Below, in pieces: positions 47,101 through 59,842 of a DNA stretch of 64,000 nt (within the stretch, counting starts at the first letter, position 1; each line of letters starts with the position of its first letter). The stretch covers positions 1,740,501-1,804,500 of the forward strand of contig NZ_CP146606.1 in assembly GCF_032842945.2 (NCBI RefSeq), in the 5' to 3' direction. The notes beneath the pieces are model-generated. The model was not told where the DNA came from. It searched no databases and worked only from the letters and a program-made list of their open reading frames with translations. Origin of the DNA: Roseovarius sp. W115 (GTDB lineage: Bacteria > Pseudomonadota > Alphaproteobacteria > Rhodobacterales > Rhodobacteraceae). The position numbers were made by a program, and so were the translations under genes.

Positions 47101-47373
47101 ATGGCCTGGATGGCATGGACATGGCCCACCGCCGCTTTCTTTGGTGTTATCGCGGCCCTTCTGATCACTTTCACGATCCTTGCGATCAAGTATCCCGAAA
47201 CCCCACGGGTGGGTATCCTTCGGATCGAAACCACACGGGGCGACCGGCTTTTCATCACGCTTCTGGGCTCGGCCTTTATCAACCTGGCCTGGCTGGGCCT
47301 TGTGGGGCTGTCTCAGCCTTATGCTTTAGTCGTCTGTGCGATCTATGCCTTTGCGGTGTTCCGATGGGTTTGA
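47101..47373 (+). CDS. glpU: DUF2160 small membrane protein (GlpU)
   Basis: 90 residues from the ATG at 47101, behind GGAGGG. Three hydrophobic stretches (WMAWTWPTAAFFGVIAALL, FITLLGSAFINLAWLGLVGL, YALVVCAIYAFAVFRWV). DUF2160 members sit in glycerol ABC operons between glpQ and glpV; in rhizobial glpSTPQUV the U product is a small membrane component of unclear role. Placed just like that here. Confidence 0.88.
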   Translation: MAWMAWTWPTAAFFGVIAALLITFTILAIKYPETPRVGILRIETTRGDRLFITLLGSAFINLAWLGLVGLSQPYALVVCAIYAFAVFRWV

Positions 47374-47452
47374 TCGACAAAACGCCGGTGGCCTTCCCCT
47401 AAATAGGGTCGCCTTACATAACCAAAGTTCGAATAACCAATGGGAGGAAACA

Positions 47453-49174
47453 ATGAACTTTAGATTGAAATCAACCACCGCGCTGGCGGCCGGTCTTGCC
47501 CTTCTGGGCAGCACGGCCTGGGCCGGGATGGAAGAGGCGATGGAGTTTCTCGACAACGAAATCGCCGGTCTTTCGGTGCTTGACCGCGCAGGGCAAGAGG
47601 CAGAGATGCAGTTCTTTGTCGATGCGGCCAAGCCGTTTGAAGGCATGGAGATCAAGGTCGTCTCGGAGACCATCACGACGCATGAATATGAAAGTCAGGT
47701 TCTGGCGCCTGCGTTCACAGCCATTACCGGCATCAAGGTTACTCATGACCTGATTGGTGAAGGTGATGTGGTCGAGAAGCTGCAAACGCAGATGCAGTCG
47801 GGCGAGAATATCTACGACGCCTACATCAACGACTCGGACCTCATCGGCACGCACTGGCGCTATCAGCAGGTGCGCAACCTGACCGACTGGATGGCGGGCG
47901 AAGGTGCTGATGTGACCCTGCCGACGCTGGATGTGGATGACTTTATTGGCACGTCCTTTACCACCGGACCGGATGGTAAACTTTATCAGCTGCCAGACCA
48001 GCAATTCGCGAACCTCTACTGGTTCCGCTATGACTGGTTCAATGATGAGAAGAACAAGGCCGACTTCAAAGAGGCCTATGGCTATGACCTCGGCGTGCCT
48101 GTCAACTGGACGGCTTATGAGGACATTGCTGAATTCTTCACCGGGCGTGACCTGAGCCATCTGGGTGTCGAAGGCGAAGTCTTTGGAAACATGGACTACG
48201 GCAAGAAAGACCCAAGCCTTGGCTGGCGTTACACCGATGCGTGGATGTCCATGGCCGGTATGGGCGACGTGGGTGAACCCAATGGCCTTCCGGTTGATGA
48301 ATGGGGCATTCGTGTCAATGAGAACAGTCAGCCAACAGGTTCCTGTGTGGCGCGTGGTGGGGCGACCAACGGACCGGCAGCGGTTTATGCGGTGACCAAA
48401 GCGATTGAATGGCTGCAGAAATACTCGCCACCTGCGGCGGCTGGCATGACTTTCTCTGAGGCGGGTCCAATCCCGGCGCAGGGCAATGTTGCGCAGCAGA
48501 TGTTCTGGTACACGGCCTTTACCGCTGCAACTGTTGAGCCCGATCTTCCTGTGATGAATGAAGACGGGACACCCAAGTGGCGCATGGCCCCCTCACCGCA
48601 TGGCGTTTACTGGAAAGACGGTCAGAAGATCGGCTATCAGGACGCAGGGTCCTGGACGCTGATGCAGTCTACTCCGGTGGATCGTGCAAAGGCCGCGTGG
48701 CTCTATGCGCAGTTCGTTGTGTCCAAGACAGTGGACCTCAAGAAAGCGGATGTGGGCCTGACGTTCATTCGTGAGAGTACCATCAACTCCGATCACTTCA
48801 CGCAACGCGCCGACAAGCTCGGTGGTCTGATCGAGTTCTACCGCTCACCTGCGCGGGTGCAGTGGTCGCCGACAGGCACCAACGTTCCTGACTATCCGAA
48901 GCTGGCGCAGCTGTGGTGGCAGAACATTGGCGACGCCATGTCCGGTGCCAAGACACCTCAAGAGGCTTTGGACTCACTTTGTGCAGACCAGGAACGTGTG
49001 CTTGAACGCCTGGAGCGCGCTGGGGTTCAAGGCGATCTCGGTCCGGTCATGAACGAGCCGCAGGATGCGCAGTATTGGTTTGATCAGCCAGGTGCGCCTT
49101 ATGCGAAGCTCGAGAATGAGGACGAAGAGCCCAAGACCGTTTCTTATGACGAGTTGATCAAGTCCTGGCAGTAA
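47453..49174 (+). CDS. glpV: Glycerol ABC transporter substrate-binding protein GlpV
   Basis: 573 residues from the ATG at 47453, with GGGAGG upstream and a signal peptide ending AWA-GME. Large extracellular-solute-binding family 1 protein: KVVSETITTHEYESQVLAPAF, YDAYINDSDLIGTHWRY, YQLPDQQFANLYWFRYDWF, FIRESTINSDHFTQRADKLGG. Last gene of the glp operon; two hairpins follow. Binds glycerol in the periplasm and delivers it to GlpPQ. No glpK (kinase) or glpF is in the window, so phosphorylation must be encoded elsewhere. Confidence 0.9.
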   Translation: MNFRLKSTTALAAGLALLGSTAWAGMEEAMEFLDNEIAGLSVLDRAGQEAEMQFFVDAAKPFEGMEIKVVSETITTHEYESQVLAPAFTAITGIKVTHDLIGEGDVVEKLQTQMQSGENIYDAYINDSDLIGTHWRYQQVRNLTDWMAGEGADVTLPTLDVDDFIGTSFTTGPDGKLYQLPDQQFANLYWFRYDWFNDEKNKADFKEAYGYDLGVPVNWTAYEDIAEFFTGRDLSHLGVEGEVFGNMDYGKKDPSLGWRYTDAWMSMAGMGDVGEPNGLPVDEWGIRVNENSQPTGSCVARGGATNGPAAVYAVTKAIEWLQKYSPPAAAGMTFSEAGPIPAQGNVAQQMFWYTAFTAATVEPDLPVMNEDGTPKWRMAPSPHGVYWKDGQKIGYQDAGSWTLMQSTPVDRAKAAWLYAQFVVSKTVDLKKADVGLTFIRESTINSDHFTQRADKLGGLIEFYRSPARVQWSPTGTNVPDYPKLAQLWWQNIGDAMSGAKTPQEALDSLCADQERVLERLERAGVQGDLGPVMNEPQDAQYWFDQPGAPYAKLENEDEEPKTVSYDELIKSWQ

Positions 49175-49303: not shown

Positions 49304-50770
49304 TCAGCGCGCCAAAGGCAACTCAAACACAAAAGCCGCTCCTTGGGCCTTGTCGTTCTCTAGATGAATCTGCCCTTTGTGCGCCGTGATGATCCGATGG
49401 CAATAGGCCAAGCCCACGCCGGTGCCTTTGCCCGCCTGTTTGGTTGTGAACAGCGGGTCGAAGATGCGACTTTTGAGGTCATCTGGGACGCCGGGACCAT
49501 TGTCTGCGACGCGAAGGCATAGCGTATTGCCATTACATGTCCAGCCGATGGAAACCTGATCGCCAACACCCGAGTCACGGACCGCATGGACGCCATTGGT
49601 CAATAGATTGATGAGAACCTGTGTGAGTTGCACCTCGTCGGCTATGACCTCTGAGCACGGCTGTGAGCCATCTACTTCCAAGATGACGTTGGCTCTTTCG
49701 GCTTCTTGCGTCGCCGCCTCAACAGCATTTGAGACAAGTTCAGAAATCCGGAGTGGCTTGAGGTCAAGAGGCTCCTCGCGTGCAAGCGACAAGAACGACC
49801 GAACGATCCGAATGCACCTTTGTGCCGCCTGCGAGAGCTTTTCCACGCGTCGTTCCTGTGGCGAGTTTTCCAGCTCTTCGTGCAGGATCTCTGCATTCCC
49901 TGCGATAATAGAGAGCGGGTTGTTCAGCTCATGCGCAATGCCCGCCAGAAGCTCGCCTAAGGCGGAAAGCTTCTCAGCCTGGAACAACTGATCTCTTTGG
50001 CGGTCAAGTTCGGCCTGGACAGCCAGTTCCTTGGTCAAGTCTTCGATGTTGCTGACGATCACGTCCTCGCCGCGATAGTCTATAAGTCGCGCTGAGAGAT
50101 CTGCGGGGAAATGCTCTCCACTTGCCCGGATACCGGTTACACGCATGTTGTCCACGCGCGCATCCGGCAAAAGAGCCGTGACGAAATCGGCGCGCTCTTC
50201 GGGCTGTGCAAAATGTGAGAAGCTGCTTTTGGCAGAGCCCAATAGCTCTGTTGCGGCAGGGGAGCGGTAAATCACTTGCCCATCTGTGACCCGTGACATG
50301 GTAAGACTGGTGGGGCATGCCTCGAGAACTTTGCGCAAAAGGGTTTCGGCCTCACGCGCGGCATCGATTTCCTTGGATTGATCCCGGATGTTGGATTGGG
50401 TGAGCGAAAATCCCCCATCGGAGGTCGCTGCCATGGTCAAAGCATAGGAAAGACCTCCCGCTGAAGGCATCAGAACAGGATCGGCGGATGGTCTATTGTA
50501 GTCGAGCGAAGATTCAATTTCGTCCAGTCGTTTCGCCACTGGAACAGGCATTGCCCCGTTGCTAAGCGCTTCGCGCAGAAAGATGGTCCAAGGCAATTCA
50601 GGTCGCAGCAAATCAGCGAGGTCAGGGTACATTTTTCGAAAGCTGCTATTGGCCAGAGTTAGAGTGCCATCGGCGTCGAACACCGCAATGCCCTGATCAA
50701 GTTTCTCTAGGATTTCATAAAGCGCTTTTGCAGTGACTTTTGCTGGTGTGTTTTGAGGGTCAAATGCCAT
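49304..50770 (-). CDS. PAS-domain sensor histidine kinase of the globin/cyclase operon
   Basis: 488 residues, no membrane helix, so cytoplasmic. Two PAS domains (about 15-130, starting [21 protein letters not shown], and about 145-245), HisKA with phospho-acceptor His280 in [17 protein letters not shown], and HATPase_c with N box [13 protein letters not shown]1 DNGPGVP and G2 [11 protein letters not shown]. No receiver domain. Strongly related in sequence and layout to the hybrid kinase at 55807-58047 ([10 protein letters not shown] versus LLRKVLETSP; same ELNNPLS box). Starts 12 nt after the cyclase stop; the third gene of globin-cyclase-kinase. Its response regulator is not in the operon. 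Confidence 0.9.
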
Positions 50771-50782
50771 AAAGCACGCCCT

Positions 50783-51799
50783 CTAGGCGTTTTCCGCCAG
50801 GTCGCGCATCAGAACATGCGTACCGTCTTTGGATGCTTCAGCTCCAAATTTTTCGGTAACACTGTCAGCGAAGGCCGTGTCTGTCGCGATGGTCATGTCA
50901 TCCGCGATTGACCGATGATGCAGCGCGGCGCCGACTGTCGGACCAAAGACGTCGTAGATGTAGTTCTGACTGCCGACAACCGATCCAATCACCGAACCGG
51001 AGGCCACTCCGATGCGCGCGGTCCACTGGATCGGATGAGACTCGTTGCGCCGCACGAGGTAGCGCAGGAAGCGCACACAAGAATTGGCGACGGCCATGGC
51101 ATGATCCTGGTTCGGGTCGGGTACGCCCGATACAGCAACATAGCTGTCTCCGTTTGTCCGGATACGTTGGCAGGAAAACTGTGCGCCTATGCGGTCAAAT
51201 GCGCTGTAGATGTCGTTGAGTTCGCTGACGATCACACCGGGTTCGTGCTGCGCAAGCTGTTCATCGAAGCCAATGAAATCAAGCGCAAGAACAGAGACGG
51301 GATCGAACAATCGTGGTGAGACAACACCGAAGGTTTTGTATTCCTCATAAGCAGCTCGTGGCATCATATTGAGCAGGAGTTTTTCGACCTGCTCTTTCTC
51401 ACGTTTGATCTCGTGTGTGTTGCGTTCCACCATCATGGAATAGGAATCAATCATGGACTCCAGTTCCTTGATCCGCGTGATGTTCTGACAGACAAGCACC
51501 GCGATATTTTCGCTGGCATTTTGCGCCAGATTGAATTCCAGCGCGACCGTCATGGTGCGCCGGCGCAACTTAAACGACGCTTCGGTCGTCATCCGACCGC
51601 CGCTGTGCATGTCTGCCCTAAGCGTTTGAGCGTCAAGATCAGGAAACAAATCGCTCAGTTTTGTAGACGGGTCTGGTTCGCCGAACCACTCATTGAAAGT
51701 GTCGTTGCGGAACGGAAACGACAGGTTTTCAAGGTCGACCAAAGCCACACCAACGCCAATGGCACGCAGAAGCTGCTCGTTGATGGCCTCAATTGACAT
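50783..51799 (-). CDS. Class III nucleotidyl cyclase-like protein with PAS domain (degenerate catalytic site)
   Basis: 338 residues. N-terminal PAS-like domain (1-110), a signalling helix (ESMIDSYSMMVERN, then EKEQVEKLLLNMMPR, about 113-148), then a class III cyclase domain (165-330). Both metal-binding Asp are kept: D174 in LALDFIGFDE and D218 in RTNGDSYVAVSGVP. The base-contacting and transition-state part reads YDVFGPTVGAALHHR: Asp to Pro at 287, the catalytic Asn to Gly at 290, and the Arg position to His at 294. It may be a pseudo-cyclase or nucleotide sensor. Its start overlaps the globin stop by 11 nt. Confidence 0.85.
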   Translation of the reverse strand: MSIEAINEQLLRAIGVGVALVDLENLSFPFRNDTFNEWFGEPDPSTKLSDLFPDLDAQTLRADMHSGGRMTTEASFKLRRRTMTVALEFNLAQNASENIAVLVCQNITRIKELESMIDSYSMMVERNTHEIKREKEQVEKLLLNMMPRAAYEEYKTFGVVSPRLFDPVSVLALDFIGFDEQLAQHEPGVIVSELNDIYSAFDRIGAQFSCQRIRTNGDSYVAVSGVPDPNQDHAMAVANSCVRFLRYLVRRNESHPIQWTARIGVASGSVIGSVVGSQNYIYDVFGPTVGAALHHRSIADDMTIATDTAFADSVTEKFGAEASKDGTHVLMRDLAENA

Positions 51800-52160
51800 C
51801 TGGTTTCTCGATCAGGATGTTGCGCCGTGCCTCAAACGCACCAACAATCGTCGCAATATCAGGACCTTCAACGTCAAAATCGGTGAGAACTTCCGCGACG
51901 ATTTCCTTCAGTCGGTCAAACTGATGATCCTCTATCTGCATGCCGCGATGGGCGCGTTCGATATGATCATCACTAAAGGATGCAGGACCGCCCATTAGGG
52001 AAGACACGAATTTTGTTTGGTGATCAATCAGACGTGAGAGATCGACGTCATCGAAAAACGGCCCGACATCATCGTCTTCCAGCAAACGATCATAGAGTGT
52101 CAGGACAATTTTGCTGACGGTAGAAAAGCCGCCATATTTGTCAAAAAGAGATTTTTCCAT
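51789..52160 (-). CDS. Truncated hemoglobin (group 1-like globin)
   Basis: 123 residues, 2/2 globin size. Tyr23 in VLTLYDRLLED (B10), Phe35-Phe36 with GPFFDDVDLSRL, HQTKF with Gln48 in the E helix, GGPASF loop, AHRGMQIEDHQFDRL with proximal His79. Tyr B10 with E-helix Gln is the usual set for tight O2 binding or NO chemistry. First gene of globin-cyclase-kinase; overlapping genes imply one transcript. Inference: the globin senses O2 or NO and feeds the other two proteins; a plain NO-detoxifying role is the alternative. Confidence 0.9.
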   Translation of the reverse strand: MEKSLFDKYGGFSTVSKIVLTLYDRLLEDDDVGPFFDDVDLSRLIDHQTKFVSSLMGGPASFSDDHIERAHRGMQIEDHQFDRLKEIVAEVLTDFDVEGPDIATIVGAFEARRNILIEKPDVN

Positions 52161-52898: not shown

Positions 52899-52929
52899 AA
52901 AAAACCCGCCAGGCAAGGCCCGACGGGTT
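52899..52929 (-). terminator. Terminator of the PLP decarboxylase gene
   Basis: Stem AACCCG (52903-52908) / CGGGTT (52924-52929) with an inner short stem, followed on the minus strand by T6, about 30 nt after the stop at 52960. Confidence 0.78.
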
Positions 52930-52959
52930 CAGGAGCGGCACGCGTGAGTGGTGGCCGCT

Positions 52960-54375
52960 CTAGGCTCTGATATCACTCCAGAGCTTTTCAATCTTTTGGG
53001 CCAGAGCAGAGATGTGGCGGGGGCCTGTTTGCTGATTGATGATTGAAATGCGCAACACACGTTGCCCGCGCCACTGCGCCGTTTGAAAGAAATGTTGCCC
53101 ATCTTCGTTGAGCGCATTTTCCATTTGCTTGGTGGCCCGGTCGGCGGCCTCCTGACCTTGCCCCGGATCAAACACCGCAACGAGCTGGTTCAAAACCACA
53201 TCGTTGAGAATGCGGATGCCGGGGACTCGCCGCAGCTTATGCGCAAGAAGGCTGGCGCAGGCGCAATGATTGTGAACCATGTCGGCGATCCCGTCACGGC
53301 CAAGCGACTTGAACGTGGCCCAGGCAGAAAACCCGCGTGCGCGGCGAGACAGCTCGGGATTGAATTGCGTTGCATCGCGTCCGCCGTCCGGCGCCTCGGA
53401 GAGATAACTGGCGGTGATGTCCATAGCGCGGCGATGAGCATCGCGATCACGGACAATGGCAAAGCCTGCATCAAAGGGCATTTGCAGCCATTTGTGCCCA
53501 TCCGTTGACCAACTGTCCGCGCGTTCGATGCCGCGGGTCATGAAGCGGGTTGTGACATTTGCGCGTGCCCACAATCCAAACGCCGCGTCCACATGCAACC
53601 ATGCGCCATGCAGCTTTGCCAAATCCGCAAGCGCGGGAAAGTCATCGAACGCGCCGGAGTTAATATGTCCAGCGGTCGCCAGAATGATTTTTGGTGCCCG
53701 GCTGTTTGCCAGTTTGTGGCCAAGTACAGTGACATCCATACGACCTTGATCGTCGGCTGGAACTTCAACAATGTTGCGTTGTCCAAAACCAAGGAACCGC
53801 AGGGCGGCCCGGTTTGACACATGTGTGTCTGCGGACAGGAACACCTGAACAGGCGGGGCGTATTGAAGTCCTGTCTCAGCCAGGTCGTAACCCGCCCGGC
53901 GCAATACCTCATCACGCGCAGCGGCCAACCCAATGAAACCCGCCATGGTGGCCCCTGTAGTCAAGCCAACAGAGGCGTCGCGTGGCAAGTCCAAGACATC
54001 CAAAAGCCAATTGCAGGCAACTTCTTCGGCTGTGGCAGCCGCTGGGGAGCATTTATATATGCCTGCATTTTGCCCCCAGATTGACGTCAGCCAATCTGCC
54101 GCAACGCCAGTGATGTTCGCCCCACCCATAACCCAGGCGTGAAACCCAGCTTGCGTGTTGCCAACAAGACCGGGCTCGGTGGCTTGGATCAGCTCGGCGA
54201 TGACATCTTCGCCGGGTTGCCCTTTGGCAGGAAGGTCTCCACCAAAGGATTTGCGCAATTCGGCCAAAGTGGCCGTGGGATGCAGGTTTGTTTTGGTCTC
54301 GCGATAGCCATTGGCATAGGCTGATGCGGTGGCCAGAGGGCCTGAGAGTGTGGGAAAGGCATGAACCTGTTGCAT
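52960..54375 (-). CDS. PLP-dependent group II decarboxylase family protein
   Basis: 471 residues from the ATG at 54375, preferred because AAAGGAA precedes it by 7 nt; an ATG at 54411 adds 12 residues. PLP features: GLTTGATMAGFIGLAAARDEV split, HVDAAFGLWA (Asp pairing with the pyridine N), and the Schiff-base Lys in SWSTDGHKWLQMPFDAG. Family includes aromatic-amino-acid, glutamate and diaminobutyrate decarboxylases; substrate open. 74 nt after cysK on the same strand. Confidence 0.88.
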   Translation of the reverse strand: MQQVHAFPTLSGPLATASAYANGYRETKTNLHPTATLAELRKSFGGDLPAKGQPGEDVIAELIQATEPGLVGNTQAGFHAWVMGGANITGVAADWLTSIWGQNAGIYKCSPAAATAEEVACNWLLDVLDLPRDASVGLTTGATMAGFIGLAAARDEVLRRAGYDLAETGLQYAPPVQVFLSADTHVSNRAALRFLGFGQRNIVEVPADDQGRMDVTVLGHKLANSRAPKIILATAGHINSGAFDDFPALADLAKLHGAWLHVDAAFGLWARANVTTRFMTRGIERADSWSTDGHKWLQMPFDAGFAIVRDRDAHRRAMDITASYLSEAPDGGRDATQFNPELSRRARGFSAWATFKSLGRDGIADMVHNHCACASLLAHKLRRVPGIRILNDVVLNQLVAVFDPGQGQEAADRATKQMENALNEDGQHFFQTAQWRGQRVLRISIINQQTGPRHISALAQKIEKLWSDIRA

Positions 54376-54449
54376 GGCTTGGTTCCTTTGAGATTCTGTG
54401 TTTTCGGGCATGGTTTGACCGGAGGAAAATCTGCCTTCGGCCAGGTGTT

Positions 54450-55544
54450 TTAGTTGCCTGCAAGAGCAGCGACGGGTGATGGTTTTGCTGGTGCGGGCAC
54501 GTCAAAACGGACGCTGGGTGTCGATTCTGAAAGCGCGAGTTCCTCATCCGTCATCTCAATTGCGACATCGTCGAAAAGCGGGGTTGAGAGGTAGCGTTCG
54601 CCGGTGTCCGGCAACATTGCGAGGATCTTGGAACCTTGCGGCGCTGTCTTGGCGACATGCAAGGCGGCCGCGAAGGTCGCTCCCCCACTGATGCCGCAGA
54701 AGATGCCTTCTTTACGGGCCAGGTCCTTGGCAATGGAAATTGCATCGGGTCCGGCAACAGACACCATCTGATCGATGAAGCCGTTCTGCATCGATTGGTG
54801 TGCGATGTCCGAAATAAAGTCTGGCGACCAGCCTTGCATCGGATGTGGGTTAAAGGCGGGATGGCTTTCCGCGGCACTTCCATCAGGGTTGAATGGCTGC
54901 ACCTCTCCGCTTTGCATCAGCGCAGCTGTGGCAGGTTCTGCCGTTACAATCTTCGTCTCGGGGCTTTCGTTGCGCAGTACGCGGGCCACACCCGTTAAGG
55001 TACCGCCAGTGCCAAAGCCCGTGACCCAAAAATCCAAACCGTCATTCCCGAAATCCCTTAGGATCTCCCGCGCTGTGGTGCGGCTATGGATCTCGACATT
55101 GGCCGGGTTTTCGAATTGCCGGGACATGAACCAGCCATGCTTTGCAGCCAGCTCTCGCGCCTTGGCCACCATGCCGCTGCCCTTTTGCGCAGCGGGGGTC
55201 AGGACGACTTTGGCACCAAGAAACCGCATGAGTTTGCGGCGTTCGACGCTGAAGCTCTCTGCCATAGTGACTACCAGCGGATAGCCCTTTTGGGCACAGA
55301 CCATTGCCAGGCCAATACCGGTGTTACCGCTGGTGGCCTCGACGATGGTTTGCCCCGGACGCAGCGATCCATCGCGCTCGGCGGCTTCGATGACGCCAAG
55401 GGCCAATCGGTCTTTCACCGATCCCATGGGATTGAACGCTTCGAGCTTCACGAAAAGCTCCACGCCCTTGGGGCCGAGTTTGTTGATTTTGACGATCGGC
55501 GTATTGCCAATCGTTTCGAGGATGGAAGATTTGATCTGTGACAT
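54450..55544 (-). CDS. cysK: Cysteine synthase A with C-terminal extension
   Basis: 364 residues. PLP Lys in NPMGSVKDRLAL (near 44), TSGNTGIGLAMVCA, TGFGTGGTLTGVARVL, CGISGGATFAAAL, and MLPDTGERYLSTPLF where E. coli CysK ends. About 40 further residues (Asp/Glu-rich, then Pro-rich ending PAKPSPVAALAGN) follow, as in other Roseobacters. Makes cysteine from O-acetylserine and sulfide. Divergent from the hybrid kinase. Confidence 0.92.
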   Translation of the reverse strand: MSQIKSSILETIGNTPIVKINKLGPKGVELFVKLEAFNPMGSVKDRLALGVIEAAERDGSLRPGQTIVEATSGNTGIGLAMVCAQKGYPLVVTMAESFSVERRKLMRFLGAKVVLTPAAQKGSGMVAKARELAAKHGWFMSRQFENPANVEIHSRTTAREILRDFGNDGLDFWVTGFGTGGTLTGVARVLRNESPETKIVTAEPATAALMQSGEVQPFNPDGSAAESHPAFNPHPMQGWSPDFISDIAHQSMQNGFIDQMVSVAGPDAISIAKDLARKEGIFCGISGGATFAAALHVAKTAPQGSKILAMLPDTGERYLSTPLFDDVAIEMTDEELALSESTPSVRFDVPAPAKPSPVAALAGN

Positions 55545-55718: not shown

Positions 55719-55745
55719 TTGACTGTATTTGCTCGCTGTTACAAT
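55719..55745 (+). promoter_or_regulatory. Candidate sigma-70 promoter of the hybrid kinase
   Basis: TTGACT (55719-55724) and TACAAT (55740-55745) with a 15-nt spacer, about 60 nt before the likely ATG. The spacing is shorter than the usual 17. Confidence 0.4.
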
Positions 55746-55806
55746 TGAAACAAAACAGAGGCGAATTGAAAACGAGCTGAAACATTCGCTGGATAGGTTT
55801 GTGTAC

Positions 55807-58047
55807 ATGACACCAGAGACTCAAACGGGCGCAACGGACCACTTACCAACCGCAGATCTTCTTTGGGATGCGATTCAATCCCTTTCCGAAGGGATAGCCG
55901 TTTATGATGCAGACCATCGGCTCGTGACCTTCAATCAGCAGTATCGCAACATGTTTCCAATGATTGCGGACCTGATCGTACAAGGTGTGCGTTGGGATGA
56001 TCTGTTGCGGGCGGGTGCGGATAGAGGACAGTACAAAGATGCCTTGGGCCGTGCGGAAGATTGGTTAGAAGACCGGCTGGGCCAAGGTGTTCCGATTGGC
56101 CAGGCTTTGGAAGTATCTCTGACGGATGGAACGTTCTACAAAGCCCAATTCAGCGCCACGAAACGTGGTGGTTTTGTGGTTGCCAATACGGACATCACCG
56201 AACGCAAAAAAGCCGAACTTGCGGCGCAGGAACAGGCGCAGTTGCTGCGTAAGGTTTTGGAGACAAGTCCGGTTGCCGTGGTCATGGCGCAAATGTCGGA
56301 CGGTAAGATACTCTATCGGTCGCCCAGAGCAATTCAGATGTACGGCGATACAGAATGTGCGCTGAAGCATTATGCTGATCCGAAGGATCGCGACACATAT
56401 ATCGCCGCGTTGACAAAATCAGGGGCGTTGGATGACTACCGCCTCACGATCAGGCTTTCAGACGGTGCCACGGTTCCTGCCACTTGCTGGGGTCGCGTTA
56501 TTGAGTTTGAAGGCGAGACCTGTGTTGTCTCAGCAGTTGTCGATTTGAGTGAACGCCAGGCGCAGGAAGAGATGATCCGTCATGTGCTGGAGGCGTGTCC
56601 GGCACCCATTCAAATGACCAAAGCTGAAACAGGCGAAGTGCTGTTTAGCAGCCCAGAAACCATCTCACTCTTTGGAACTGATCGCAATGCGCGGACCTTT
56701 TACGCAAATACAAAAACGCGTGACGCCTATCTTCAGAAGTTGAAACAGGACAGAGCAATTCGCGATTTCAAAGCCGAATATGTCAGAGCTGATGGCTCAA
56801 CGTTCTCGGGTTCGGTGTCGGCACGACTTATCCGTTACAACGAGCAAGATGTGATCGTCTCGCATACGCGTGACTTGACAGACCAGCTTCGGATCGAGGC
56901 GGAATTGGCACAACAGCAAAATCAACTTTATCAGAATGAAAAAATGTCCGCGATGGGCGAGCTTTTGGCAGGGGTTGCGCACGAGTTGAACAATCCATTG
57001 TCCGTCGTGGTCGGACATTCGCTTATGCTGCAAGAGGATTGCACCGATCCAGAAACGCTTCGCCAAGTTGATAAAATCAGCCATGCGGCGGAACGGTGCG
57101 CAAAAATTGTGAAAACCTTCCTGACCATGGCGCGGCAGGAGCCCGCGAAACAGCAGAGCACAAATATAAATGAGATTGTGCAAACCGCAGTTGATGTTGT
57201 GCGTTATGGGGATGGAGGCGGTGGTCCAGACATTACCTGTGACTTGGCAAAGGACCTGCCGTTGGTTGCGGTTGATCCCGACCAGATGACACAAGTTTTC
57301 ATTAACCTCATTCTAAATGCCGAACAGGCCATAAGTAAAAGCGGCAAGGGCACAAAAATTGTGGTTAGAAGTGGCCTAAGCACGGCCAAGGACGGCGTTG
57401 AGGTTTGGGTGGAAGACGATGGACCGGGCATACCTGTAAGCATACGTAGCCGTATTTTTGAACCGTTCTTCACGACCAAGGATGTGGGCGAGGGTACGGG
57501 CATTGGCCTTGCTTTGTGTCACCGCATCGTAAAAACGCATGATGGAGGGATAGTTCTTGGGGAAACACCTGAAGGTGGTGCGAGTTTCCAGATATACTTG
57601 CCTCAGGACATCCCCACTCAGCGTCACTCAGGCAAGAAAGACCCATCGGATACGCGACCTTCCGAAATACGCGTTCTGATCGTCGATGACGAAGAAGATG
57701 TCGCAGAGCTGAACGCGGAAATTCTGATACGTGGCGGATACACTGTTGATATGTTCAATGTGGCGGATCAAGCGCTCGAAAGCTTGCGCAACCAGACATA
57801 TGATATCATTCTCAGTGACCTGAACATGCCGGATACTGATGGACGTGGATTCTTTGAAGCCATATCCCAGGATTTTCCGGAAATGGTGCGGCGTATCGGA
57901 TTCGTGACAGGAGACACTATGGGACGGTACTCGCAGACATTTCTCGTTGAGGCGCAGCGACCTTATATTGAAAAGCCTGTTTCGCCAAAAGAACTTCGCG
58001 GGTTCGTATCGGACATTCTGAACAAGTTGGAGCAGGGTAACGCATGA
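55807..58047 (+). CDS. Hybrid sensor histidine kinase with three PAS domains and a receiver
   Basis: 746 residues from the ATG at 55807; upstream in-frame codons lack an SD. PAS1 (20-130, IQSLSEGIAVYDADHRLVTFN), PAS2 (145-255), PAS3 (265-370), HisKA with His392 in [17 protein letters not shown], HATPase_c (DDGPGIPVS, GEGTGIGLALC), then a receiver domain with Asp671 in ILSDLNMPDTDG. No membrane helix: cytoplasmic sensor. PAS layout and sequence closely match the kinase at 49304, so they are paralogs. Overlaps the response regulator by 4 nt. Confidence 0.92.
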   Translation: MTPETQTGATDHLPTADLLWDAIQSLSEGIAVYDADHRLVTFNQQYRNMFPMIADLIVQGVRWDDLLRAGADRGQYKDALGRAEDWLEDRLGQGVPIGQALEVSLTDGTFYKAQFSATKRGGFVVANTDITERKKAELAAQEQAQLLRKVLETSPVAVVMAQMSDGKILYRSPRAIQMYGDTECALKHYADPKDRDTYIAALTKSGALDDYRLTIRLSDGATVPATCWGRVIEFEGETCVVSAVVDLSERQAQEEMIRHVLEACPAPIQMTKAETGEVLFSSPETISLFGTDRNARTFYANTKTRDAYLQKLKQDRAIRDFKAEYVRADGSTFSGSVSARLIRYNEQDVIVSHTRDLTDQLRIEAELAQQQNQLYQNEKMSAMGELLAGVAHELNNPLSVVVGHSLMLQEDCTDPETLRQVDKISHAAERCAKIVKTFLTMARQEPAKQQSTNINEIVQTAVDVVRYGDGGGGPDITCDLAKDLPLVAVDPDQMTQVFINLILNAEQAISKSGKGTKIVVRSGLSTAKDGVEVWVEDDGPGIPVSIRSRIFEPFFTTKDVGEGTGIGLALCHRIVKTHDGGIVLGETPEGGASFQIYLPQDIPTQRHSGKKDPSDTRPSEIRVLIVDDEEDVAELNAEILIRGGYTVDMFNVADQALESLRNQTYDIILSDLNMPDTDGRGFFEAISQDFPEMVRRIGFVTGDTMGRYSQTFLVEAQRPYIEKPVSPKELRGFVSDILNKLEQGNA

Positions 58048-58754
58048 CGACCACCGCCAAAATTCTCGTATGTGACGATGAACCGGATGTTCGCGATATG
58101 CTGCGCGAATATCTGACCAAGCGGGGCTTTGATGTTGTTCCAGCTGGTAACAGCGATGAGTTGCGCAATGTGATCGACACAACTTCGGTGGATCTCATTC
58201 TCTTGGATATCAACATGCCGGGTGAGGATGGATTGACCACTTTGCGCAGTCTGCGCACATCCAATCAGGTGCCAGTTGTTATGCTGACCGCCGCGGGCGA
58301 AGTGATAGATAAGATCGTGGGTCTGGAGATGGGCGCCGATGATTATCTGGCCAAACCCGTTGACCTTCGTGAGCTAGAGGCGCGCATCAAGGCCGTGCTG
58401 CGGCGCAAGGTTGAGGCGGTTCAAGAACCTGCTCAAGGGGACGCGCCCAAGACGGCACCGTTTGGTGAATTCACGCTCGACCTTACTGCGGCAAAGCTGA
58501 TTGATCCCGAAGGTGCAGAGGTTGCGTTAACCGCAATGGAGTTTAACTTGCTCAGCCTGTTTGCTCGCAACAGAGGTCGCGTCTTGAATCGTGACCAGAT
58601 TTTGGAGCAGGCGCATGACCGGTCCTGGGACCCGTTTGACCGCAGCATTGATATTCGGATTTCCCGCTTGCGCCGCAAGATCGAGCCCAACCCCCAGAAA
58701 CCGCAGATCATCAAAACGGTTCGGGGGATTGGGTATATTTACAATCCCAAATAG
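58044..58754 (+). CDS. OmpR-family response regulator
   Basis: 236 residues. Receiver: DDEPDVRDML, phospho-acceptor Asp55 in ILLDINMPGEDG, Thr82 in VVMLTAAGE and Lys104 in DDYLAKPVDL. C-terminal winged helix: LTAMEFNLLSLFARNRGRVL, then DIRISRLRRKIEP and KTVRGIGYIYNP. Cognate partner of the hybrid kinase (ATGA overlap). Could also take phosphate from the regulator-less kinase at 49304. Confidence 0.94.
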   Translation: MTTTAKILVCDDEPDVRDMLREYLTKRGFDVVPAGNSDELRNVIDTTSVDLILLDINMPGEDGLTTLRSLRTSNQVPVVMLTAAGEVIDKIVGLEMGADDYLAKPVDLRELEARIKAVLRRKVEAVQEPAQGDAPKTAPFGEFTLDLTAAKLIDPEGAEVALTAMEFNLLSLFARNRGRVLNRDQILEQAHDRSWDPFDRSIDIRISRLRRKIEPNPQKPQIIKTVRGIGYIYNPK

Positions 58755-58774
58755 AAATAGCAGTGTTCTATTTC
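58754..58774. terminator. Weak AT-rich hairpin between converging genes
   Basis: GAAATAG (58754-58760) / CTATTTC (58768-58774), loop CAGTGTT, touching both stop codons. May stop transcription from either side. Confidence 0.35.
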
Positions 58775-59842
58775 ACACGTGGCTGCGCCATTTGATGCCA
58801 AGAGCAACTTGACTTGATGCCGCAACCATACGGCGTTGTATGTTTTTAAGTGAGCCGACAGCCGCGCCAAACAGTACTTGCCATGTCGTGTCACGCATCT
58901 GGCCGATGCAAACAGCGACCAGGATCAATGTGGCGCCAGGGACAAATCCAATGCCGGGGTTTTCTCCTAACAGCACCATTGCAAAGACGATACCAGCCAA
59001 GGGTGAGACAGAAGTTGCCAGAGACAAGTCGCTGGCCCGTGCGTATTTCAGCGCGAAGAACCAGGCGAGTTGTCCGATTACGATCACCGGAATTGCATAG
59101 ACCCAAATCCAACCCAGCAAAACTGGTGAGAAGAGATCCTGAAACTGCTCGGGTCCTTGCAGAATTGAGACAAGCGCAAAATACATCGCAGCACCAACAG
59201 CCGTGCGGTAGATTGAGAATATGCCCATTGGAATCCTCTTCAGGACACGGCGCGCAACGATTGCTGACGCAACGTAGGACAATGTGGCCGTAGCCGCTGC
59301 GATTTCGCCGATGTTAAACACGTTAGTGTCGCCGCCCCCCTCAAGCCGATCATCAGGGTCGCACCGATCAGGGCGACCAAACCTGCGGAAAACGCTCTGG
59401 GGTTGATGCGTTCGCGCAAGAATATCGCGGCCGCCAAAAGAAAAAGCGGTGGTTCAATCCGGCTCACCAACACAACGTTTGTCACGTTGGAGTGCTCCAA
59501 TGCAAAGAAGAACAGGCCGGGGGTCAGGGCGGAGGACAAAAAGGCGGACAGTGTCAGAAAGCCCCAGTCCTTGCGTGACAACACCCGCAAGTTCGTTCGG
59601 GTCCAGTCGCCTCGGAAAAATGCGATCATCGGAACCAGCGAAATGAGCGACCCCAGAAACAATAAGTTTGTGAACGTGATGGCATTCCGCCCACCGGCAA
59701 CTGGATTGGCCGACCCAATGTCAACCAATAGTGTCGCGATGGAATTTGACGCGGCATAGATCATCACGCCCACCCAAGCAAAGCCCATGCCGATGGTGGC
59801 AGGAGAGAGGTCATTCAATTTATTCAAGGCATTGCGAGGCAT
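58773..59842 (-). CDS. EamA-family (DMT) transporter, one frameshift
   Basis: About 356 residues once repaired, with ten hydrophobic helices in two EamA halves (first from [21 protein letters not shown], second from [21 protein letters not shown]). The frame breaks in the loop between the halves at the plus-strand C6 run (59335-59340); one more base restores [18 protein letters not shown]. Metabolite exporter of unknown substrate, possibly amino acids. Convergent with the response regulator. Confidence 0.87.

Follow-up and report, generated by a model that had tools for sequence, protein, structure and literature searches.

A truncated globin, a cyclase-like protein and a histidine kinase in Roseovarius: a candidate split heme sensor whose output may have changed

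When the gene of a truncated globin overlaps that of a cyclase-like protein and is followed by that of a histidine kinase, does the globin act as the heme sensor of one signalling unit, and through which of its partners would that unit speak? The question is raised by a stretch of 64,000 nucleotides from Roseovarius sp. W115 (contig NZ_CP146606.1, positions 1,740,501 to 1,804,500; hereafter the window), in which a globin (GLB), a PAS/cyclase-like protein (CYC) and a PAS histidine kinase (HK) are encoded in this order on the minus strand. An earlier note on the window had proposed a single signalling unit of three proteins with a possible nucleotide-binding adaptor in the middle. The linkage of globin and cyclase upholds part of that proposal, but the kinase is a later addition that was absent from the ancestral unit: what is conserved is the pairing of a group I truncated globin with a protein of PAS, helix and class III cyclase parts, and this older core has an apparently intact adenylyl cyclase. 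The explanation towards which we lean, though only mildly, is a split heme sensor in which CYC, as a pseudo-cyclase adaptor, would relay the state of the globin to HK; the nucleotide-binding adaptor guessed at in the earlier note is in keeping with the catalytic residues that CYC has selectively lost.

GLB (51789-52160, 123 amino acids), CYC (50783-51799, 338 amino acids) and HK (49304-50770, 488 amino acids), as given by the list of open reading frames (ORFs), are arranged as the earlier note had described, GLB and CYC overlapping by 11 nucleotides (51789-51799) and CYC and HK being separated by 12 (50771-50782). Its three domain calls were supported by Pfam, and its statement that the proteins are without membrane helices was borne out by their highest 19-residue hydropathy values (0.88 for GLB, 1.36 for CYC and 1.01 for HK), a membrane helix being evident in none. 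The genome of 3.7 Mb holds a single truncated globin by the PF01152 model and two class III cyclase domains besides that of CYC. An anti-phage system was rejected, since PADLOC gave none of the three a match up to E 1e-5.

A globin gene lies upstream of CYC in every one of the 117 loci examined (the window, L032-L049, L051-L136 and L139-L150); left aside were L050, a fragment where its contig ends, L137 and L138, which repeat the window and L048, and L151-L152, which are partial and come from outside the class, and L001-L031 either cover these places in shorter form or hold other cyclases. A search for CYC in 248 genomes of the family returned 20 members (E < 1e-40) in 19 genomes, besides a fragment in G240, where the contig ends, and 15 weaker hits to unrelated cyclases. 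The globin alignment, run against the same genomes, hit strongly at 20 places, each adjoining CYC and all within those 19 genomes, and weakly at two others away from it, and none of the 15 unrelated cyclase places coincides with a globin place. At the level of the class, CYC occurs in 17 of 385 genomes with the globin upstream in all 17, two of the cyclase genes being interrupted by stops (L142 and L148 have such internal stop codons beside a globin gene), and at the level of the phylum a match was found in 5 of 398 genomes, two of which, outside the class, are partial. Of 259 relatives, the neighbour survey took the best 80, which over-represents close ones; in this sample, going by record titles, the pair is present in roseobacters, Rhizobiaceae-type bacteria, Sneathiella, Kiloniellaceae and sphingomonads, and the other neighbours vary from locus to locus, although many class- and phylum-level loci span 1.5 kb per side and distant neighbours are therefore not visible there. 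Linkage in relatives, set beforehand as a check, thus holds for the pair throughout and for the exact trio, with a receiver-less kinase, in 29 of the 117 loci (26 of them distinct). Chance co-location is ruled out by the constancy of the pair and by the weaker cyclase places never matching globin places, and the linkage in relatives and the purifying selection on the genes together show that the trio is no accident.

The middle protein has the class III cyclase fold (PF00211, Guanylate_cyc, E 5.9e-27), and relatives that are named in their sources, among the best 120 of 1430, are of the 'adenylate/guanylate cyclase domain-containing protein' kind; the closest named one among the best 80 of 259 is from an uncultured Roseovarius (L052, 82%). 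Judged by sequence, its PAS domain does not reach the Pfam cut-off (PAS_8, 14 against 21.8 bits), but a PAS-like domain is visible in the AlphaFold2 model (mean pLDDT 86). On the minus strand, the model places the PAS-like domain with an N-terminal helix at residues 3-106 (51482-51793) and a long signalling helix, which lies in the most conserved part of the protein, at residues 107-145 (51365-51481), and sequence and model together place the cyclase homology domain at residues 148-337 (50789-51358). The predicted structure matches class III cyclases and human soluble guanylate cyclase (sGC), the PAS-like part being aligned only by the sGC rows, which cover residues 274-660 of the alpha chain (8hbe) and 206-609 of the beta chain (8hbh); 308 of 338 residues are aligned at a root-mean-square deviation of 17.1, a high value probably due to domains placed differently. 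With the HNOBA model, 13 of 19 members of the CYC family give matches of E 0.01 or better; the window protein, which is not among them, reaches E 0.024 over residues 99-148, mostly linker, and the resemblance is carried largely by that linker. CYC thus has, in its model, the PAS, coiled-coil and cyclase layout of sGC, which the earlier note had overlooked. Its key positions, whose roles we take from class III cyclase biochemistry, read Asp174, Arg214 (the Lys position), Asp218, Asp283, Gly290 (the Asn position) and His294 (the Arg position). Both metal-binding aspartates (Asp174 and Asp218) are therefore in place, and the Asn and Arg that in class III cyclases form the transition-state pair have been replaced.

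This replacement goes together with the presence of a kinase. HK is a cytoplasmic histidine kinase by its HisKA (E 1e-14) and HATPase_c (E 8.8e-26) domains, with two PAS stretches and no receiver domain in Pfam, and the residues of its H, N and G boxes are intact, as they are in all 49 operon kinases, HK included. A same-strand kinase lies directly downstream of CYC in these 49 of the 117 loci, 29 having no receiver, as in the window, and 20 being hybrids with an OmpR-type regulator gene in the locus. No kinase was found directly downstream in the other 68; of the 65 distinct rows among these, 34 have a related hybrid kinase nearby in divergent orientation. For the tree, 111 rows were used after dropping the stop-interrupted L142 and L148 and the identical L060, L109, L120 and L134, and a more careful tree, from which the long branches L045, L051 and L149 were removed as well, had 108. 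In the latter, all 46 rows with a downstream kinase form, with L117, one clade of 47 rows (support 100/100). A large ORF in L117 was considered as a cyclase-kinase fusion, but tblastn found no kinase in that locus, which is therefore a clade member without one. Asn and Arg are both kept in none of the 46 kinase rows and in 60 of the 65 without a downstream kinase. By position, the kinase rows keep the metal aspartates in 43 and 46 cases, the substrate Asp in 46, Lys in 9 (Arg in 37), Asn in 1 and Arg in 17, and the other 65 rows keep them in 65 and 64, 65, 60, 60 and 61. Since most rows outside the clade, distant ones included, are intact, the loss is probably derived, and the earliest branches of the clade (L101, L126, L061, L062 and L064), which keep Lys and Arg and have lost only Asn, suggest that Asn went first. 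A change from Lys to Arg alone was rejected as a diagnostic sign, as L145 and L147 have this Arg with Asn and Arg kept. One genome, G125, holds two pairs, a degenerate one with a kinase (L033) and a very divergent one (L051, with the motif DRQDIL) without.

Loss of these residues has not made CYC a pseudogene, a status ruled out by ratios of nonsynonymous to synonymous substitution (dN/dS) of 0.046-0.073 in six close pairs within the clade; the kinase core gives 0.067-0.168 in five computable pairs, and all of these values are rough because dS is near saturation in most pairs (2.36 between the window and L052, above 1 in three others). Mean identity in the 46 kinase rows is 0.906 for the linker and 0.608 for the cyclase domain, against 0.935 and 0.812 in 32 intact rows, which are a chosen subset and may differ from the kinase rows in age. 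Selection seems to have been retained on the transducing part of CYC and relaxed on its catalytic part.

The globin belongs to group I of the truncated hemoglobins by family (PF01152, Bac_globin, E 1.1e-14, 55 bits against a cut-off of 21), by its closest solved relatives, which are of this group (E 1.7e-13; HbN, E 1.9e-13), and by its heme-pocket residues. A gap-free alignment with HbN at an offset of 10 gives Tyr23 (B10), Phe36 (CD1), Gln48 (E11) and His71 (F8); Tyr B10, Phe CD1 and Gln E11 are present in 110 of 110 covering globin rows and His F8 in 111 of 111. In HbN, the pair of Tyr B10 and Gln E11 stabilises bound O2. GLB is probably a heme sensor for O2 or nitric oxide (NO). The residues that flank Gln48, namely Asp46 (110/110), His47 (110/110) and Lys50 (108/110), are nearly fixed among these globins and yet differ in HbN, which has Gly, Lys and Glu in their places, and this combination suggests a docking face.

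The surroundings of the trio, in which the earlier note likewise overlooked a recurrent hybrid kinase and regulator, offer a possible route for its output. No regulator lies in the operon of HK, the next long ORF below it (47336-49174) being on the plus strand; by eye, its product looks like a transporter binding protein. On the other side, and outside the trio transcript, the plus strand carries a hybrid kinase, HK2 (55729-58047), with three PAS domains, HisKA, HATPase and a receiver, and the regulator RR2 (58044-58754), of OmpR type with a receiver and winged helix, which starts 5.9 kb upstream of the start of the globin on the opposite strand. RR2 is assigned by its ORF and by OmpR-family models, all those listed lying under their equivalog cut-offs, and its relative in L119 shows receiver and Trans_reg_C domains. 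HK2 is a recurrent neighbour of GLB and CYC, and HK and HK2 are related, falling into separate groups of one kinase tree with weak support (53 for a single group of operon kinases, 85 for one of 47 of the 49 rows). Divergent from HK2 and RR2, a cysteine synthase-like gene (54450-55544) and after it a pyridoxal phosphate-dependent (PLP) decarboxylase gene (52960-54411) lie upstream of GLB; the four recur together in Roseovarius loci such as L052, L054, L056, L058 and L059. The cysteine synthase of L056 (3827-5356) has a C-terminal glutaredoxin domain that the window copy (364 amino acids) seems to be without. Some 800 bases separate the decarboxylase gene from the trio and include a terminator-like hairpin (52902-52930, minus strand; 13 pairs, 8 of them G-C, with a T-rich tail), which is weak evidence in a scan that gave 9 sites against a shuffle mean of 5.1. 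Other recurrent neighbours are OsmC, two flavoproteins, an alpha/beta hydrolase, a methyltransferase and a transporter, and in 10 of 80 loci a second globin (PF00042, flavohemoprotein-like, without the reductase) lies beside the regulator, for example at L115:11747-12184. The flavoprotein at L070:5069-6319 resembles the MSMEG_0569 family below its cut-off (357.6 against 498.35 bits). Taken together, the neighbours hint at sulfur or redox stress without naming a ligand (O2, NO, carbon monoxide, cyanide or sulfide). Beyond RR2, at 58773-59842 on the minus strand, two adjacent, overlapping ORFs appear by eye to make up a single EamA-type transporter gene that a frameshift may have split. The pair has also been met with a divergent HK2-type kinase on an IMG/VR contig catalogued as viral (L132), which may represent bacterial DNA flanking a prophage or have been assigned wrongly.

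In the split sensor that we favour, GLB would bind heme and a diatomic ligand, most likely O2 and next NO, and would dock on the PAS domain and signalling helix of CYC as H-NOX does within sGC, occupying the place of H-NOX in an sGC-like layout. Binding of the ligand would alter the contact between GLB and the PAS domain, and the helix would transmit the change. In the ancestral form this signal would open an adenylyl cyclase and raise cyclic AMP (cAMP); in the clade of the window, CYC, deprived of the residues that stabilise the transition state but perhaps still able to bind nucleotide and metal, would act as an adaptor to HK. Since HK has neither a receiver nor a regulator in its operon, it probably phosphorylates the receiver of HK2 or RR2; the pair at 55729-58754 is a likely downstream partner of the trio. 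The fuller proposal, that an sGC-like split adenylyl cyclase was rewired in one alphaproteobacterial clade so that a dead, nucleotide-binding transducer switches a kinase, exchanging a messenger for a phosphorelay and leaving the sensor unchanged, we put forward tentatively, as falling a little short of an even chance.

Several points weigh against the split sensor with a pseudo-cyclase adaptor, besides the limits on the rates and identities given above. Capture of the kinase and loss of the residues share the single stem branch of the 47-row clade and are not repeated events, so that the association counts once; the independent contrasts are two, too few for a test, and a Fisher p of 6e-26 for kinase against residue loss was discarded as evidence on account of this single origin. 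Asn and Arg have also been lost without a directly downstream kinase in L045, L051, L073, L076 and L117, of which L045, L073 and L076 carry a divergent HK2. RR2 is found in the available DNA of only 13 of the 29 trio loci; of the 16 others, eight end inside HK2 (L032, L033, L036, L060, L065, L070, L077 and L109) and in eight it was simply not seen. Unusual residues are compatible with activity in some class III cyclases, so that inactivity of the window CYC is probable at most. Such activity leads to the reading, unlikely in our view, of CYC as a working adenylyl cyclase with unorthodox residues, through which the globin controls cAMP and beside which the kinase is a separate output on a shared transcript. 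The metal and substrate aspartates, none of which is missing from the window or from 43 of the 46 kinase rows, fit a working enzyme, as do the loss of Asn alone in the earliest branches and the intact pair in most relatives without a downstream kinase. However, the residues lost are those of the transition state, eight different residues occupy the Asn position in the 46 kinase rows, as expected of a site no longer needed, and it is in the cyclase domain, not in the linker, that conservation has fallen.

Two further readings would remove either the globin or the kinase from the signalling complex. The globin might be an enzyme (an NO dioxygenase, nitrite reductase or peroxidase) or a ligand buffer that is merely co-expressed; it has Tyr B10 and Gln E11 in common with HbN, an NO dioxygenase, and the second, flavohemoprotein-like globin beside RR2 in some loci points the same way. 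This is improbable given the one-to-one linkage with a single cyclase subfamily whose layout is like that of sGC, the near-invariant residues presumably lying outside the pocket, and a reductase not being seen in the pair. Slightly less probable again is that HK is an independent two-component sensor which simply came to lie downstream, sensing through its own PAS domains and working with HK2 and RR2. The two PAS stretches of HK, its relationship to HK2 and the 68 loci with no kinase directly downstream all speak for such independence, but the kinase adjoins CYC in 46 of the 47 clade rows, short gaps or overlaps separate the two genes in the clade, and its arrival coincides with the decay of the cyclase.

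Class III cyclases are usually read as enzymes. If the split sensor holds, this conserved lineage would offer a seldom-seen view of a signalling enzyme on its way to becoming an adaptor: the binding aspartates kept, the chemistry lost, a kinase gained, and apparently enzymatic relatives still extant. Truncated globins have mostly been studied as NO scavengers, and a sensor role would be added to them. How a heme domain communicates with a cyclase is a long-studied question in animal sGC, and the pair would provide a small, soluble, two-protein model for such signalling through a PAS domain and a helix.

Among known systems, sGC has a PAS domain followed by a long helix and a cyclase domain, as CYC does, but its heme domain is H-NOX, whereas the trio has a truncated globin encoded by a separate gene. 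An sGC in the strict sense was rejected for want of H-NOX, no HNOB match being listed up to E 1 for the three proteins in Pfam. Moreover, sGC carries the GTP-type Glu/Cys pair, in contrast to Arg214/Asp283 in the window CYC and the adenylyl-type Lys/Asp in intact relatives, and the window CYC differs further in being without the catalytic Asn and Arg and in having a kinase gene next to it. In the H-NOX/HnoK and NosP/NahK systems a stand-alone heme protein is encoded beside the kinase that it regulates; these have other heme folds and no cyclase-fold adaptor, and such a system was rejected for the trio, neither H-NOX nor the FIST heme domain being among its Pfam matches listed up to E 1. Nor is the trio a globin-coupled sensor with a fused globin, GLB and CYC being separate, overlapping ORFs, and no protoglobin match is listed for it up to E 1 in Pfam.

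Among the literature matches listed there is no description of a truncated globin-cyclase pair or of the trio, and the nearest relatives in concept combine some of its parts. The heme domain of HemAC-Lm is a fused globin. This protein is a heme-containing soluble adenylate cyclase of Leishmania (PMC12755159); it resembles the unit proposed here in that a globin heme sensor controls a class III adenylyl cyclase and differs in being protozoan and a single fused chain, instead of a separate group I truncated globin with a kinase. In AfGcHK, a globin-coupled histidine kinase, the globin controls the kinase from within the same chain (PMC8697598), whereas in the trio a third protein stands in between. 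Globin stressosome modules followed by kinase or receiver genes, in Vibrio, Ruegeria and others (PMC9237108), likewise bring a heme globin sensor, intermediate proteins and a two-component output into one cluster, although they are built on RsbR/STAS machinery and a protoglobin, and the excerpt does not mention a cyclase-fold adaptor. Among the matches listed, HemAC-Lm, AfGcHK and the globin stressosomes are the closest published ideas, and beside them the trio reads as a new variant on known heme signalling, set apart by a well-supported evolutionary switch.
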